The notes under the pieces were generated by a model. It was not told where the DNA came from and did not search any database. It worked only from the letters and a program-made list of their open reading frames with translations. The translations under genes and the position numbers were made by a program. Below, one piece after another: positions 21,140 to 25,875 of a DNA stretch of 32,560 bases. The stretch's first letter is position 1. Each line of letters starts with the position of its first letter. Source of the stretch: Acidobacteriota bacterium. GTDB lineage: Bacteria; Acidobacteriota; Terriglobia; Bryobacterales; Bryobacteraceae. The stretch covers positions 1 through 32,560 of the forward strand of contig VFZS01000001.1 of assembly GCA_016871095.1 (NCBI GenBank). The letters run 5' to 3'.

Positions 21140-22893
21140 AGGCGTAGGCGCGTCCCGCGCGCGCTACTGCCGGATTGTCGGCGCTGCCCGTACTTGGCTG
21201 CACCCCCGGTGCCCAGGTGAGGCGGTGGCTTCGGCTTCAGTCCGAGCAGCCGCATGTCTGGCGGGGCCTGCTGGAGCCCGATCACTCCCAGCCCCAGCGC
21301 GATGACCTCGTCGTCATGGCAGCCACTCTGCGCCGCCGGCTTGCCATCGGGATGCACGACGAAGGTCCGGCATTCCGCAATAGTGTTCGGGTCGCGGATC
21401 ACGACCGCCAGCTCCCGGATCGCCCCATCGAGCGTGCTGACGAGCTGGAGCCGTGTCACAGTGGTGGTCTTCCACCCCAGGCGCAGACGCGTGCTGGTGG
21501 CCTCCGGCGCATAGAGGTCGTCTGGATCTGGCTGCCGGTGGTAGATGAGCGCCGGCGGGTACGCCTCGTGCTGTAGCTCCGTCAGCAGCGCCAGGCCCGG
21601 CCCATTGGCCTCCGGCACCAGGAACGCCCAGTTGTACCAACGGCCGAGCACTGCCACGTAACGCCCCAGCGCCGCCGGCTCGATCCGTCCGCGCAGCTTG
21701 CAGACCTGCTCGCCGGTATCGCGGTCGAGCACCGTGGCCACGCTGAAATCCGGGTCCGAGGCCCCGATCGCGCCGCGCCCGGCTGCATCAATGCCCTCGC
21801 ACACGTCGATCCCAATCACGTACTGCCGGTGCTGCCCTGGCCGCTTGTACAGCACTACCGGCCCGCGCTCCCGCTGCACGAATTGGATGTGCTTCTTCGG
21901 CCCGATCTCGACCTCCTCGAGGTCGCCCGTCGGCGCATCCCGGATCACCGGCATCCGCGCCAAGTGCTGGTGGCTGAAGCGTGGCCGCCCGCTGAATAGG
22001 AACGCCTCCTCGGGGCAGCTTGGGTACTCCTGCTTGAACGTGTCCGGGTTGTTGTCGCACTTGACCCGGATGGCCCAGCGCCGCCAGGCGAGCTGCTCGA
22101 GGCTCAGGCCGTATCGCTCCGCGAGCTCGTACTCTTCGTCGCTCAGCGAGCGCTGGAACTGGTCCGCCGGCACGTCCAGTTCGCGCCGGTACTCGGGGTG
22201 CTCCCACCAGGCGCAGAAGATCGCCGTCCATTCGCCGTCGCCGTGCGGATCGCTGGCCCGCTGCCAGAGCTGGTAGAACTCATTGCCGATCCCGTTGGCG
22301 GTGCTCTCGACCACCACCATGGTGTCCAGATCGTCTGGGACCGAGTTCATCAGCGCCGCCATCAACGTTCGCGCGTCTCGCCAGAAGCCGTACTCGCTGA
22401 GGTGCAGGTAGCGGAGGGAATGCGCGCGGCCTTTGCGCACATTGTTCGCGGTGGCCACCTTGATGTAGCTCTTGTTCGCCCAGCGCAGGATGCCCCGGTT
22501 GTCCTGCTTCAGCCGCGGCAGCCCCACCAGACCGCGGAAGGGCCGGTAGGTGTCCTGGAAGAGTTTGTAGTACCCGAAAATCTCGGTGGCGGCGTCAAGC
22601 TCATGCGCCACCACCAGGCCTTTCTGCCCGGCTTGGAAGGGGATCTCGTGGAAGAAGTGCGCCGCCGTCGCCGTCGAGACGAATACCTGGCGCGCCTTCA
22701 GGTAGACGATCCTGATCGGTTTCCGCTTGCGGCGCAGTTCCTCGACCGCTTGGCGCAGCTTCTCCGGGGCTGGCGCAAAGCTGAAGGACAGGATCTGGCC
22801 TTGCTTGTTCTGAACAGAGAGGGACTCCTCCGCGAACTTACGGTGATCGTGGAAGTCTTCGTAGAGCTCGCGCAGCTCGCGCGTTATCCGCAC
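21136..22893 (-). CDS. terL: Terminase large subunit
   Basis: 585 residues from GTG 22893. Packaging ATPase: YLKARQVFVST (residues 64-74) is the Walker A region, with F71 where family members usually have Gly (KARQxGxST). RYLHLSEYGFW (161-171) is Walker B with E167, and VVVESTANG (193-201) is the coupling motif. The nuclease domain shows VIGIDVCEG (D363), FLVPEANGPG (E428) and CHDDEVIALGLG (D527, D528), the expected RNase H-like acidic set. It cuts and pumps DNA into the head via the portal. The 3' end overlaps the next gene by 4 bp and the 5' end overlaps the sigma gene by 10 bp. Confidence 0.9.
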   Translation of the reverse strand: MRITRELRELYEDFHDHRKFAEESLSVQNKQGQILSFSFAPAPEKLRQAVEELRRKRKPIRIVYLKARQVFVSTATAAHFFHEIPFQAGQKGLVVAHELDAATEIFGYYKLFQDTYRPFRGLVGLPRLKQDNRGILRWANKSYIKVATANNVRKGRAHSLRYLHLSEYGFWRDARTLMAALMNSVPDDLDTMVVVESTANGIGNEFYQLWQRASDPHGDGEWTAIFCAWWEHPEYRRELDVPADQFQRSLSDEEYELAERYGLSLEQLAWRRWAIRVKCDNNPDTFKQEYPSCPEEAFLFSGRPRFSHQHLARMPVIRDAPTGDLEEVEIGPKKHIQFVQRERGPVVLYKRPGQHRQYVIGIDVCEGIDAAGRGAIGASDPDFSVATVLDRDTGEQVCKLRGRIEPAALGRYVAVLGRWYNWAFLVPEANGPGLALLTELQHEAYPPALIYHRQPDPDDLYAPEATSTRLRLGWKTTTVTRLQLVSTLDGAIRELAVVIRDPNTIAECRTFVVHPDGKPAAQSGCHDDEVIALGLGVIGLQQAPPDMRLLGLKPKPPPHLGTGGAAKYGQRRQSGSSARGTRLRL

Positions 22894-23441
22894 GCCGGGT
22901 ATGTCGGCAAGACGGCGTCTCGTTGCATTGCGCGTCGGAGCCGCGCGACGGCGCGCTTGTTGAGCTGGCAGGCACGGCTCTCGTTCACTCCGATGCGCTG
23001 GCCCACTTGCCGGTGAAAGAGATCCTGGCCGTAGTACAGCAGTAGCACCGTCTGATCGCGCCTGGGTAGGCCCAGGAAGGCCTTGAGCATCTGAGCCATC
23101 AGTCGCTGATGGTCCAGGTCCTCCTCGGAGATCGACTCCTCGACCAAGGCCGGTAGTTTCTCATCGAGCGGCGCCGTCGCTCGCATTTCTAGTTGGAACT
23201 GCCGCCGCCGGTACTGCTCCCACAGTCGGCCTCGCATGATGCGCCAGGCGTACCCGAGGAACGGCGTGCCATGGCTCGGGTCGTAGCGCTCCGCCGCCTC
23301 CACCAGACCCAGGCACGCCCACTGCTCGAGATCTTCGATGTCGATCCAGGGCGGCATGTGCCGCTTCGCCTGGAGCGCCACCAACCGCGCCGCCGAGCGG
23401 TACTCCAGGATGAGTTTGTCCCGCTCACCTTGGTCTTGCAT
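22884..23441 (-). CDS. Phage-encoded sigma-70-family factor
   Basis: 185 residues from ATG 23441, with AGGAG 4 bases upstream; an earlier in-frame ATG at 23465 has no such site. Residues about 32-79 are sigma region 2: IDIEDLEQWACLGLVEAAER, then FLGYAWRIMRGRLWEQYRRR, the -10 recognition and core-binding helices. Residues 125-170 are region 4: LPRRDQTVLLLYYGQDLFHR, then VGQRIGVNESRACQLNKRAV, a helix-turn-helix for the -35 element. Region 1 is absent, and region 3 is a short acidic linker, so it is a compact alternative sigma. It lies between small and large terminase, overlapping both. Inferred to redirect host RNA polymerase to phage promoters. Confidence 0.8.
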   Translation of the reverse strand: MQDQGERDKLILEYRSAARLVALQAKRHMPPWIDIEDLEQWACLGLVEAAERYDPSHGTPFLGYAWRIMRGRLWEQYRRRQFQLEMRATAPLDEKLPALVEESISEEDLDHQRLMAQMLKAFLGLPRRDQTVLLLYYGQDLFHRQVGQRIGVNESRACQLNKRAVARLRRAMQRDAVLPTYPACG

Positions 23442-23901
23442 GGGACTCCTGCCGAAACACCGCATGCAGACGATCCATCAGCAACAAGCCCTCTTCGCCG
23501 CCCTGCTCTGCCGAGCCGCGTGGCCGCGCCGCCTCCAGGATCTCCACCAGCCGCTTGACCGCCTGAAGCCGCGCATAGTGATCCGGCCCGAGTGCTGCCT
23601 TGTTACCCTCCCGGTCCAGCGCCACCTTCTCCGCGGCCAGAGCGTCGTCAATCGCCTCGATCGAGCGGCCCACCAGCGCCTGTATCCGCGCTTGATGCGG
23701 CGCCAGCATCCCTGCCAGCAGTAGAGCCGTCTCTGGCTGCTGCGCTTCGTGCGATGCCCACTGGCGCGACAGGCCGGCTTCACGCGCAGCTTGCGCCAGT
23801 GTCTTGCCGGTCACGACCGCCGTCGCAATCTTCGCCCGCCGGACAGATCGCGCCGGACTCGCTGCCCGTGTCTTGGCTTGGCTCTTGCTCGGGCGCTTCA
23901 C
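23425..23901 (-). CDS. HTH protein, small terminase candidate
   Basis: 158 residues from GTG 23901. A basic N-terminus (MKRPSKSQAKTRAASPARSV) leads into a helix-turn-helix at residues 27-52 (IATAVVTGKTLAQAAREAGL, then SRQWASHEAQQPE), as in small terminases and related DNA-binding subunits. The rest is helical (ARIQALVGRSIEAIDDALAA, YARLQAVKRLVEILEAAR), suited to oligomerisation. It is the first gene of the late operon, before sigma and large terminase, which is the usual place. A transcription regulator is the alternative. Confidence 0.65.
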   Translation of the reverse strand: MKRPSKSQAKTRAASPARSVRRAKIATAVVTGKTLAQAAREAGLSRQWASHEAQQPETALLLAGMLAPHQARIQALVGRSIEAIDDALAAEKVALDREGNKAALGPDHYARLQAVKRLVEILEAARPRGSAEQGGEEGLLLMDRLHAVFRQESHARPR

Positions 23902-24015
23902 GCTTGCCGCCTTGCCGCCGCTTCACCTTGTCGGCATCACGGCGGTGTGACTGCATCCTGCGGTGGGGCGCCCACTCCTGACCGCAGGCCACCGGCCCCT
24001 TTGTCTTATTTTGTC

Positions 24016-24043
24016 AAAACTGTGGCAGATTCACCACAGTTTT
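24016..24043. promoter_or_regulatory. 10-bp inverted repeat upstream of late operon
   Basis: AAAACTGTGG (24016-24025) and CCACAGTTTT (24034-24043) form a perfect inverted repeat with an 8-bp spacer, about 115 bp upstream of the late-operon start at 23901. Size and spacing fit a dimeric regulator site; a hairpin terminator is less likely because both flanking operons point away. No convincing standard -10/-35 pair for the late operon was found around it. Confidence 0.55.
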
Positions 24044-24102
24044 CAACAGCAGCAGGTGTGTGAGTGGGTGCCTCCGGACTGACTCACCCACCCACGGAAA
24101 GC

Positions 24103-24137
24103 TCTTCTTTTACTTCTTTCTATAAATAATGATATAG
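24103..24137. other. AT-rich block next to palindromes
   Basis: About 35 bp with roughly 80% A+T in an otherwise GC-rich window, ending CTATAAATAATGATATAG (itself an inverted repeat CTATA/TATAG). It touches the first of three palindromes. It could be a DNA unwinding element or hold promoters for either direction. Confidence 0.5.
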
Positions 24138-24213
24138 CCGGAACTGGAGTTCCGGTAACACCGGAACTGGAGTTCCGGTATCGGTCTACGGGACACCGGA
24201 ACTGGAGTTCCGA
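24138..24213. repeat. Three upstream copies of a 20-bp palindrome (iteron/operator)
   Basis: Copies of CCGGAACTGGAGTTCCGG lie at 24138-24155, 24161-24178 and 24196-24213 (the last base of copy 3 differs). Copies 2 and 3 have A before the core (ACCGGAACT); copy 1 has G. Arms are perfect; only the central GG breaks symmetry. Start-to-start spacing is 23 and 35 bp. The same palindrome, in the other orientation (centre CC), occurs five times in the adjacent gene. They sit just upstream of the -35 at 24238, so they may act as origin iterons, autoregulatory operators or both. Confidence 0.8.
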
Positions 24214-24237
24214 TGTCCTGCCGACCTAAAAAATCCC

Positions 24238-24267
24238 TTGACAGCGCATCGTGGTTTCTGTTTGAAT
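24238..24267 (+). promoter_or_regulatory. Promoter for the replication operon
   Basis: A consensus -35 TTGACA (24238-24243) is followed after 18 bp by TTGAAT (24262-24267), with an extended TG two bases earlier; TTTGAA at 17 bp is the alternative -10. Transcription would begin near 24274, where an ATG occurs, giving a leaderless small ORF or the leader of the initiator mRNA. The third palindrome ends 25 bp upstream of the -35. Confidence 0.6.
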
Positions 24268-24273
24268 CAGAAC

Positions 24274-24513
24274 ATGCTGCGGGCTGCCCCCTTTTCTCGG
24301 GCATTGGCAGCCCGGATTCTACGCACTGGTCGCCCCAAGTCGAAGCGCAGCGCCGCCGCCCGTGTCCTCCGGGCATGTGTTCGTAACCGGCGCGGCGGGC
24401 GGCCACGCACCATCCAGCACGTCACTGGGCGCTACTGCCGGTGCCGGCGGTGCGAAATCCCGCGTGAGGCGGCCCGCGCCGCCGCCAAAGCGCGCTCCGG
24501 AGACCGCCGCTAA
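24274..24513 (+). CDS. Possible small basic Cys-containing protein
   Basis: 79 residues if started at ATG 24274, at the predicted transcription start (leaderless). Sequence is very basic (RPKSKRSAAARVLRACVRNR) with a cysteine cluster RYCRCRRCEIPR that could bind a metal ion. No Shine-Dalgarno and no recognised family. It may be a real small regulator or just leader sequence of the initiator gene, which starts 65 bp after its stop. I cannot decide between these. Confidence 0.35.
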   Translation: MLRAAPFSRALAARILRTGRPKSKRSAAARVLRACVRNRRGGRPRTIQHVTGRYCRCRRCEIPREAARAAAKARSGDRR

Positions 24514-24533
24514 CCGGCCCTTCCCCGGTCTCC
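24499..24533 (+). terminator. Hairpin in initiator leader
   Basis: GGAGACCG (24499-24506) pairs with CGGTCTCC (24526-24533) across a 19-base loop, 45 bp before the initiator start. It spans the stop of the small upstream ORF, so ribosome movement on that ORF could change folding. No U-tract follows; attenuation is speculative. Confidence 0.3.
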
Positions 24534-24578
24534 AGGGTATCTGTTATCGGAAGTTGGCCGGGAACGGAGGGAAAGCCC

Positions 24579-25736
24579 GTGGCAGTCCCAGCCCGGAAGA
24601 CCGTTGCTCCGGCAACTGAGCGGATCGAGCGAGGCGCAACGCCGCTTCCGGGCTGGCTCCTCGATCAGGGCTTCACACCACTGCCCCGCGGATTCTTCCG
24701 CGAGTTGGGACGGTGCTTGGAGTACGGCGCCCTCCTCTGCCTGGGCATCGTGTTTGAGGAGACGTTAGGCCGTCCACGGCCCGCAGGGAGCCCTGCCCCG
24801 GAAATGTCGGAGCCGATCCGGGAGGAGCAGTTCGCACGTTGGACCGGCTTGACGACTCGGGCCGTCCGCGAAGCGCTGGCGCGACTCGATGAAGTTGGCG
24901 TGATCGCTCGCGTGAAGCGTGGTCGCGCCTACTGCTACAAGGTCGTCCCAGAGCGCCTATTCCACCTGCCGGAACGCCCCACCCGGAAGCTCCAGCGTCT
25001 CCCCAAGCCCGCGCCAGCCCTCGCCCAACCTGTTCCGATAATTCTGTCGTGCCCCCTGGGTTCGGATTGCCCCGTATCAGAGGTGTACGACGGCGCCGAG
25101 GGGTTGACGAACCTCCGCGATGGCGAACAAACGGCGAAGGACACCGGAACTCCAGTTCCGGTTTCCGCCCGCGATACCGGAACTCCAGTTCCGGTTTCCG
25201 CCCGCGATACCGGAACTCCAGTTCCGGTTTCCGCCCGCGATACCGGAACTCCAGTTCCGGTTTCCGCCCGCGATACCGGAACTCCAGTTCCGGTTTCAAA
25301 AGGCGAAGAGAAGGCGAAGCCCGGCGAGAATGGGCAACTGGCTGCGCTGCGCGCGATGCTCGAGTTCGCCCTGGCGGGGCAACTACACAGCGTGCCGGAC
25401 GATGCCATGGTCACCCGGATCGCCCGAGCCCTTGGTGATGCGCCGCTGGCGGATCTCGCCGAGGCGATCAAGCAACGGCGCGCCAAGATCCGGAGCTGGG
25501 GCCTGGTGCATCTGATCGCCCAGGACTGCGGCAGGGCTTGGGCTACGGTCGGCTATCGCGTCTCGCTCCCGGACCTGGAGCGCCAGTTCCGGGAGGCCTC
25601 CGGGGGCATGGTACTCGAGCTCGCCCGGCAGTTGGTCGCTCATCCGGATCTCGCGGACTGGAAGCGCGAGCAGATCCTGGCCGTCTACCCGCAGTTGAAC
25701 TCACAGCGCTGCCACGGAGCCGCCGCCGGTGCCTGA
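24579..25736 (+). CDS. Replication initiator-like protein (winged helix, lambda O-like layout)
   Basis: 385 residues from GTG 24579, with GGAGGG 7 bases upstream. Residues 20-125 form a winged-helix domain: GWLLDQGFTPLPRGFFRELG, then IREEQFARWTGLTTRAVREA and LARLDEVGVIARVKRGRAYC, as in phage replication proteins of the O/RepA/DnaD kind. Residues about 186-240 are five copies of DTGTPVPVSAR, encoded by 33-bp repeats that each contain a palindrome. Residues 250-370 are helical and end in a small basic domain. Lambda O also carries its origin iterons inside its own gene. Inferred: binds the palindromes with its N-terminal domain and recruits replisome parts with the C-terminal domain. A self-regulating repressor is the alternative. 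Confidence 0.65.
   Translation: MAVPARKTVAPATERIERGATPLPGWLLDQGFTPLPRGFFRELGRCLEYGALLCLGIVFEETLGRPRPAGSPAPEMSEPIREEQFARWTGLTTRAVREALARLDEVGVIARVKRGRAYCYKVVPERLFHLPERPTRKLQRLPKPAPALAQPVPIILSCPLGSDCPVSEVYDGAEGLTNLRDGEQTAKDTGTPVPVSARDTGTPVPVSARDTGTPVPVSARDTGTPVPVSARDTGTPVPVSKGEEKAKPGENGQLAALRAMLEFALAGQLHSVPDDAMVTRIARALGDAPLADLAEAIKQRRAKIRSWGLVHLIAQDCGRAWATVGYRVSLPDLERQFREASGGMVLELARQLVAHPDLADWKREQILAVYPQLNSQRCHGAAAGA
25144..25293 (+). repeat. Five in-gene palindromes at 33-bp period (candidate origin)
   Basis: CCGGAACTCCAGTTCCGG occurs at 25144, 25177, 25210, 25243 and 25276, each 18 bp, with an exact 33-bp step (about three helical turns, so sites face roughly the same side). Each is flanked to ACCGGAACT and AGTTCCGGT, and the linker TTCCGCCCGCGAT is identical between copies. 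The repeats encode 11 residues in frame. An A-rich stretch (25296-25319) follows, much as the AT-rich segment follows the iterons in the lambda origin. The palindromes are in inverse orientation to the three upstream copies. Confidence 0.85.
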
Positions 25737-25875
25737 CACTACTACGCAGCCGTGGATGGACCCTGACGGGACGTGGTGGTTCTTGTGGGCTGGCCTCGCC
25801 CGTGGTCCGTTTGAAACAGAAGCTGACGCCGCCTCCGCCTTCGACTCCATCCTGGCTGAGGTGTACGGGGACTGA
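25729..25875 (+). CDS. Small acidic protein, 48 aa
   Basis: Frame from GTG 25729, overlapping the initiator stop by 8 bp, to TGA 25875. It reads MDPDGTWWFLWAGLARGPFE then TEADAASAFDSILAEVYGD: a beta hairpin with Trp residues and a helix. Acidic, no known family. Overlap with one gene and 4 bp spacing to the next support coding. ATG at 25756 is an alternative start. Confidence 0.5.
   Translation: MPDTTTQPWMDPDGTWWFLWAGLARGPFETEADAASAFDSILAEVYGD

Follow-up and report, generated by a model that had tools for sequence, protein, structure and literature searches.

The window (the whole stretch of 32,560 nucleotides analyzed here) is part of a tailed phage, with a terminase and a major head protein among its encoded products. 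An independent viral contig, IMGVR_UViG_3300020109_002313, carries the same phage at 100% identity over 10,924 bases, which makes an assembly artefact an unlikely explanation for the palindromes discussed below. The features of interest, listed in Table 1, comprise a cluster of three palindromes beside an AT-rich block, a promoter, a small open reading frame, a dif-like attachment site, and a gene for a 385-aa protein that contains five more copies of the palindrome. Elsewhere in the window, a sigma-70-like protein with regions 2 and 4 is encoded at 22884-23465 (- strand) beside the terminase gene, and the first 115 bases of positions 1-355 are repeated exactly 240 bases downstream, so that the end of the contig carries a direct repeat.

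Table 1. Positions of the features discussed in the text; L004, L333, and L338 are relatives.
Feature	Position	Strand	Sequence	Basis and remarks
AT-rich block adjoining upstream site 1, candidate unwinding element	24103..24136	none		base composition
Upstream palindrome 1	24137..24156	none	GCCGGAACTGGAGTTCCGGT	centre GG, one outer-base mismatch; homologous site in L004 and L338
Upstream palindrome 2	24160..24179	none	ACCGGAACTGGAGTTCCGGT	centre GG; 23-bp step from site 1, also found in L004 and L338
Upstream palindrome 3	24195..24214	none	ACCGGAACTGGAGTTCCGAT	centre GG, one outer-base mismatch; homologous site in L004 and L338
Sigma-70-like promoter	24238..24267	+	TTGACA, 18 bp, TTGAAT	TTGACA at 24238-24243, TTGAAT at 24262-24267
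Small basic CxCxxC protein, 79 aa	24274..24513	+		between promoter and attP; conserved in L004, L333, and L338
dif-like attP	24527..24554	-	ACTTCCGATAA-CAGATA-CCCTGGAGACC	XerC-type arm, centre, divergent XerD-type arm
Replication-initiator-like gene, 385 aa	24579..25736	+		O-like PHROG matches (weak), winged-helix model, BFVD fold matches
Predicted winged helix-turn-helix, residues 82-122	24822..24944	+		AlphaFold model
In-gene palindrome 1	25143..25162	none		pattern match, centre CC
In-gene palindrome 2	25176..25195	none		pattern match, centre CC
In-gene palindrome 3	25209..25228	none		pattern match, centre CC
In-gene palindrome 4	25242..25261	none		pattern match, centre CC
In-gene palindrome 5	25275..25294	none		pattern match, centre CC
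Tyrosine recombinase, catalytic domain only, 186 aa	28550..29110	-		PF00589, E 1.3e-31

The palindrome GGAAC-N4-GTTCC occurs eight times in the window, five times within the 385-aa gene and three times upstream of the TTGACA promoter. Dinucleotide shuffles gave a chance expectation of 0.01 copies, and eight copies were reached in none of 100 shuffles. The five in-gene copies, all perfect apart from the two central bases, follow one another in frame at steps of exactly 33 bp and encode the peptide DTGTPVPVSAR. The eight palindromes, the period, frame, and peptide of the gene copies, and the TTGACA at 24238 are thus all present as the preliminary description of this DNA had given them. A search of the whole 5.9-Mb host assembly found the exact form CCGGAACN4GTTCCGG confined to the window; CCGGAACTSSAGTTCCGG was matched at one site each by 64 genome stretches, and we took these matches as chance.

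The AlphaFold model of the 385-aa protein shows a single winged helix (pLDDT about 90), followed by a long disordered linker that holds the repeats (residues about 185-250) and a helical C-terminal domain. Matches to O-like initiation PHROGs are weak (phrog_678, E 0.0021; phrog_391, E 0.0062), and the fold matches are winged helices, the best in BFVD including one annotated as GpO N-terminal (E 2.6e-4). In Pfam, the protein matched neither PF04492 (Phage_rep_O) nor a plasmid Rep family of two-winged-helix initiators. No full-length relative was found among named phages or plasmids, and only two matches came from the host genomes, one at 33% in G031 and the other, marginal, in G119. The open reading frames scanned downstream include no helicase loader of the P/DnaC type; an HNH endonuclease and proteins of no assigned function lie there instead. 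The proposal that this gene is initiator-like gains support from the winged-helix model, the weak PHROG matches, and the HTH_36 and O-like genes with the same palindrome described next.

A tblastn search with the window protein led to gp54 of Mycobacterium phage phiGD21-1, whose gene contains five copies of GGAACN4GTTCC, four of them at 33-bp steps and encoding TGTAVPV. The DNA was also searched with no protein information, by looking through 2.9 million viral contigs for two GGAACN4GTTCC sites 5-35 bp apart; this returned 88 stretches, compared with 14 for the reversed control pattern. Such clusters lay within open reading frames of at least 150 aa in 67 of 81 cases, as against 25 of 85 for the SOS-type pattern CGAACN4GTTCG. 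Some of the stretches encode plain repeat proteins (PTPTGTPVPP). From the tandem-palindrome stretches, 45 initiator-sized open reading frames were picked by eye, with long repeat proteins left out. HTH_36 was present in 22 of these genes, at least 27 matched phrog_270, annotated as a replication initiation protein, and others matched Phage_rep_O, DnaD_N, or DnaT. The clusters mostly begin at residues 86-159, past the winged helix, and site spacing falls mainly at 22-24, 32-34, 44-47, and 54-57 bp, or about two to five helical turns, with peaks at 22-24, 33, 44-47, and 56-57 bp; it is periodic, with 11 bp the strongest among the periods tried. The array in the window shares the features that define this group, namely an initiator-like gene of the winged-helix type whose linker holds at least two GGAACN4GTTCC sites, two to five helical turns apart.

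In 32 of the 45 genes the sites use more than one reading frame, which, together with the helical spacing, indicates that the shared feature is the DNA site and not the peptide. In several actinophage-type members, including phiGD21-1 gp54, DnaA boxes (TTRTNCACA) adjoin the palindromes, most often immediately 3' of the right arm; the loci concerned are L075, L124, L079, L087, L093, L142, L090, and L100. The boxes number 2.1 per kb in the arrays and 0.04 per kb elsewhere, with some of these loci being close relatives, so that the events are not independent. For the family as a whole, the use of several frames, the helical spacing, and the DnaA boxes that adjoin the sites in some members all argue for selection at the level of DNA, as had been supposed for the window. 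More speculatively, one palindrome specificity may have been kept, or repeatedly reached, by many divergent phage initiators, each within its own coding sequence.

The upstream cluster has a much narrower distribution. It was seen only in the window, L004, and L338, and was absent from about 30 other loci for which 500 bp or more before the gene could be examined (up to 1.5 kb). The L004 protein is 49% identical to the 385-aa protein, and its gene is preceded by three palindromes that can be aligned with those of the window and then by the same promoter; L338 has the three sites and the promoter, and its contig stops just inside the initiator gene. The TTGACA and an A+T-rich -10-like element are conserved in both, as is an AT-rich stretch beside site 1. 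Some of the three sites in L004 and L338 have one arm mismatch, and their start-to-start spacing is 23 and 26 bp in L004 and 23 and 34 bp in L338, compared with 23 and 35 bp in the window. The two-cluster layout is therefore a real feature of this lineage, conserved in L004 and, for its upstream half, in L338.

The orientation assigned to the two clusters did not hold up in the same comparison. The CC and GG centers that were thought to make the clusters face each other differ in the two central bases only, the rest of the site being symmetric, and the upstream centers vary among relatives (TGGA three times in the window; TCCC, CCCA, and TCCA in L004; CCGG, TGGA, and CCGG in L338). We therefore rejected a functional meaning for this orientation. 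When the two clusters of the window are aligned, the upstream one matches the in-gene one as an inverted copy whose flanks (AGGACA, CGATA) agree too, and this would explain its center bases; the spacer alone is not significant, since 8.7% of shuffles do as well.

The in-gene array is variable in the lineage, with five copies in the window, one in L004 (GATACCGGAACCCGGGTTCCGGTATC, a 26-nt perfect palindrome), and one decayed copy in L333, whose protein is 79% identical to that of L004. In L333 the peptide DTGTPVPVS is kept and the palindrome is broken by synonymous changes (GATACAGGGACTCCGGTACCCGTATC). Retention of the peptide without the palindrome, which the preliminary description had named as evidence against its proposal, was thus found once. 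The recognition-helix region of L333 has changed as well (TVWGIRKAL, compared with STRGVRQAL and TTRAVREAL), so the loss of the site there does not refute binding. A palindrome lost when specificity changed would fit these data, with the caveat that this is a single case noticed after the fact. The L333 and L004 initiators have nearly identical C-terminal halves and diverged winged-helix halves, making the gene a mosaic.

The sequence comparisons leave the reading of the palindromes as putative iterons well supported. The palindromes themselves, their conservation, mixed frames, and spacing, and the place of attP are observations; binding by the 385-aa protein, origin function, regulation, handcuffing, and excision gating are inferences. 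The model that we consider quite probable is one in which the 385-aa protein is an O-like initiator whose winged helix would bind GGAAC-N4-GTTCC as a dimer, with both clusters as its putative binding sites. The placing of iterons in the linker part of the initiator gene itself is the widespread arrangement, as in lambda; in this lineage the upstream cluster is the better conserved of the two. The upstream trio, which lies beside the AT-rich block and upstream of the promoter without covering it, would be the likelier core origin and/or control site of the operon. The five copies in the gene would have arisen recently, by tandem expansion from a single ancestral site there, and they probably provide additional binding sites for origin enhancement, titration, or cluster pairing. 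Promoter and initiator would be joined only in the excised circle, via the dif-like attP between them. In lambda, the minimal unwinding unit consists of two iterons and an adjacent AT tract (PMC7466680); by this standard, and for this lineage, the trio with its adjoining AT-rich block is more like an origin core than is the array in the gene. Positions 24111-24140 are 73% AT, against a window mean of 34%. No GC-skew switch was seen at the clusters, and 23951-25750 contains no DnaA box within one mismatch. An inverted repeat of the GTGGGTG/CACCCAC type, conserved in L004 and L338, lies upstream of the AT-rich block at 24056-24095.

Alternatively, the in-gene array could be the origin, as in lambda, and the upstream trio merely an autoregulatory operator of the operon formed by the small open reading frame and the initiator. 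We regard this as possible but rather doubtful. The other family members examined carry the in-gene cluster only, lambdoid origins sit in the middle of O (PMC7466680), and the upstream sites lie at about -126, -103, and -68 relative to the expected start site. However, these sites do not overlap the -35 or -10 elements, and the AT-rich tract is found upstream, with none beside the in-gene array. Moreover, just one in-gene site exists in L004, and the one in L333 is decayed, whereas the upstream trio, AT-rich block, and promoter are kept in all three loci where they can be compared (the window, L004, and L338).

It is improbable that the palindromes are operators of another phage protein, such as a lysogeny repressor or the small CxCxxC protein, instead of sites for the initiator. 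The small protein, 57-60% identical in L004, L333, and L338, is conserved together with the upstream cluster, and no repressor was identified. Against this, the palindrome tracks initiator genes across many unrelated phages, and in L333, the one such case, an altered recognition helix accompanies the lost site. This small basic protein may act in recombination or in regulation.

Slightly less probable again is that the gene array is a recent coding minisatellite, produced by 33-bp duplications in a Pro-rich linker, with DTGTPVPV palindromic by chance and the DNA without function. The near-identity of the five gene copies had been taken as a sign of selection on the DNA, a point that we do not retain: recent tandem duplication yields near-identity for free and is the better explanation. 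Of the 11 arm pairs in the extended palindrome, 8 are dictated by the peptide itself; the peptide is also kept without the palindrome in L333 and has its counterpart in the plain repeat proteins among the pattern hits. Yet when the gene was recoded synonymously at its own codon usage (20,000 trials), at most two sites arose for the window, never five, and the same number of trials on L004 never produced its single in-gene site. The palindrome also persists three times in non-coding upstream DNA, in the window and in two relatives, and all three frames are used across the family, so that the encoded peptides differ. The core GAACN4GTTC is that of Gram-positive and actinobacterial SOS boxes, and LexA/SOS-type operators coupling phage replication to DNA damage would account for it, but we rejected LexA as the binder and consider this very improbable, given that the host's own lexA locus (L187) is without GAACN4GTTC, that CGAAC-type pairs are distributed differently, mostly outside long open reading frames and with scattered spacing, and that five in-gene copies at 33 bp are unlike an operator.

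The position of the attachment site adds a further aspect to the model of an O-like initiator acting on both clusters. The attP core, TATCTGTTATCGGAAGT, lies at 24538-24554, between the small open reading frame and the initiator. A second contig of the same assembly (C536, L184) marks a phage-host junction: it matches window 24237-24559 at 98% identity before passing into a HAD-phosphatase gene, a host gene present in 31 of 41 genomes searched. A dif-like 28-mer occurs once each in 22 of the 41 genomes (the reversed control in none), and in several it is close to the HAD-phosphatase gene. A dif-like attP of a tailed phage at host dif near the HAD-phosphatase was seen at window 24527-24554, in L184, and at 1084-1101 of L073, and the TATCTGTTATCGGAAGT core is common to eight further viral contigs. 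The 186-aa tyrosine recombinase may act at this site, and since the phage encodes such an enzyme we do not claim dependence on host XerCD alone.

With attP between promoter and initiator, integration should cut the initiator off from both its promoter and the upstream sites. In the integrated prophage, the promoter and the three upstream sites would then lie at the opposite end from the initiator and its in-gene array, and excision would rebuild the promoter-initiator unit and bring both clusters within 1.2 kb. We tentatively propose that replication is gated by excision in this way, the integrated prophage lacking initiator transcription from the 24238 promoter and excision rejoining the unit and switching replication on.

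In sum, this work links an uncharacterized phage protein to a specific DNA site and shows that dozens of divergent phage initiators carry the same 14-bp palindrome in their linkers, whatever the reading frame. It offers a way to find phage origins from sequence alone and a natural data set on the co-evolution of an initiator and the sites inside its own gene, and an attP between promoter and initiator provides a simple, testable mechanism coupling prophage excision to replication. In the open-access literature searched, we found no description of GGAACN4GTTCC iterons, of a specificity shared over divergent initiators, of a second upstream cluster, or of a dif-like attP between promoter and initiator.

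In-gene iterons are already known from lambda. The O proteins of lambda and Stx phages are winged-helix initiators with four to six inverted-repeat iterons inside their own gene, extra iterons lengthening the protein (PMC7466680), and the window initiator resembles them in its modeled N-terminal winged helix and five iteron-like inverted repeats within the gene. It differs in iteron sequence, in having the AT tract beside a second, upstream cluster, in the missing Phage_rep_O match, and in the lack of a P-like loader next door. The HTH_36/phrog_270 initiators are closer in site, sharing the palindrome in the linker after the winged helix, a common 33-bp step, and the TGT(A/P)VPV peptide, although phiGD21-1 gp54 is only about 25% identical to the window protein in alignment; they have no upstream cluster, and some have abutting DnaA boxes, unlike the window. 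ORF016 of Staphylococcus phage 77 (L355), 41% identical to family member L114, likewise has short inverted repeats in the linker at about residue 100, but these are of a TTGAC/CAATA type, about 270-360 bases into the gene, which suggests that the site changes along with the initiator protein. In iteron plasmids (F RepE, R6K pi, RK2 TrfA), which regulate by handcuffing, the initiator gene has binding sites in two groups nearby. The window is similar in its two groups of putative sites near an initiator-like gene and in possible autoregulation, whereas the plasmid iterons lie outside the gene as direct repeats and act with proteins of other families. Finally, the attP of TLC-phi combines a dif-like XerC arm and center with a divergent XerD arm (PMC5357621), and the window attP has this same structure in common with the IMEX phages (TLC-phi, VGJ-phi, CTX-phi); the window phage differs from them in being tailed, in encoding a short tyrosine recombinase, and in having its attP between promoter and initiator.
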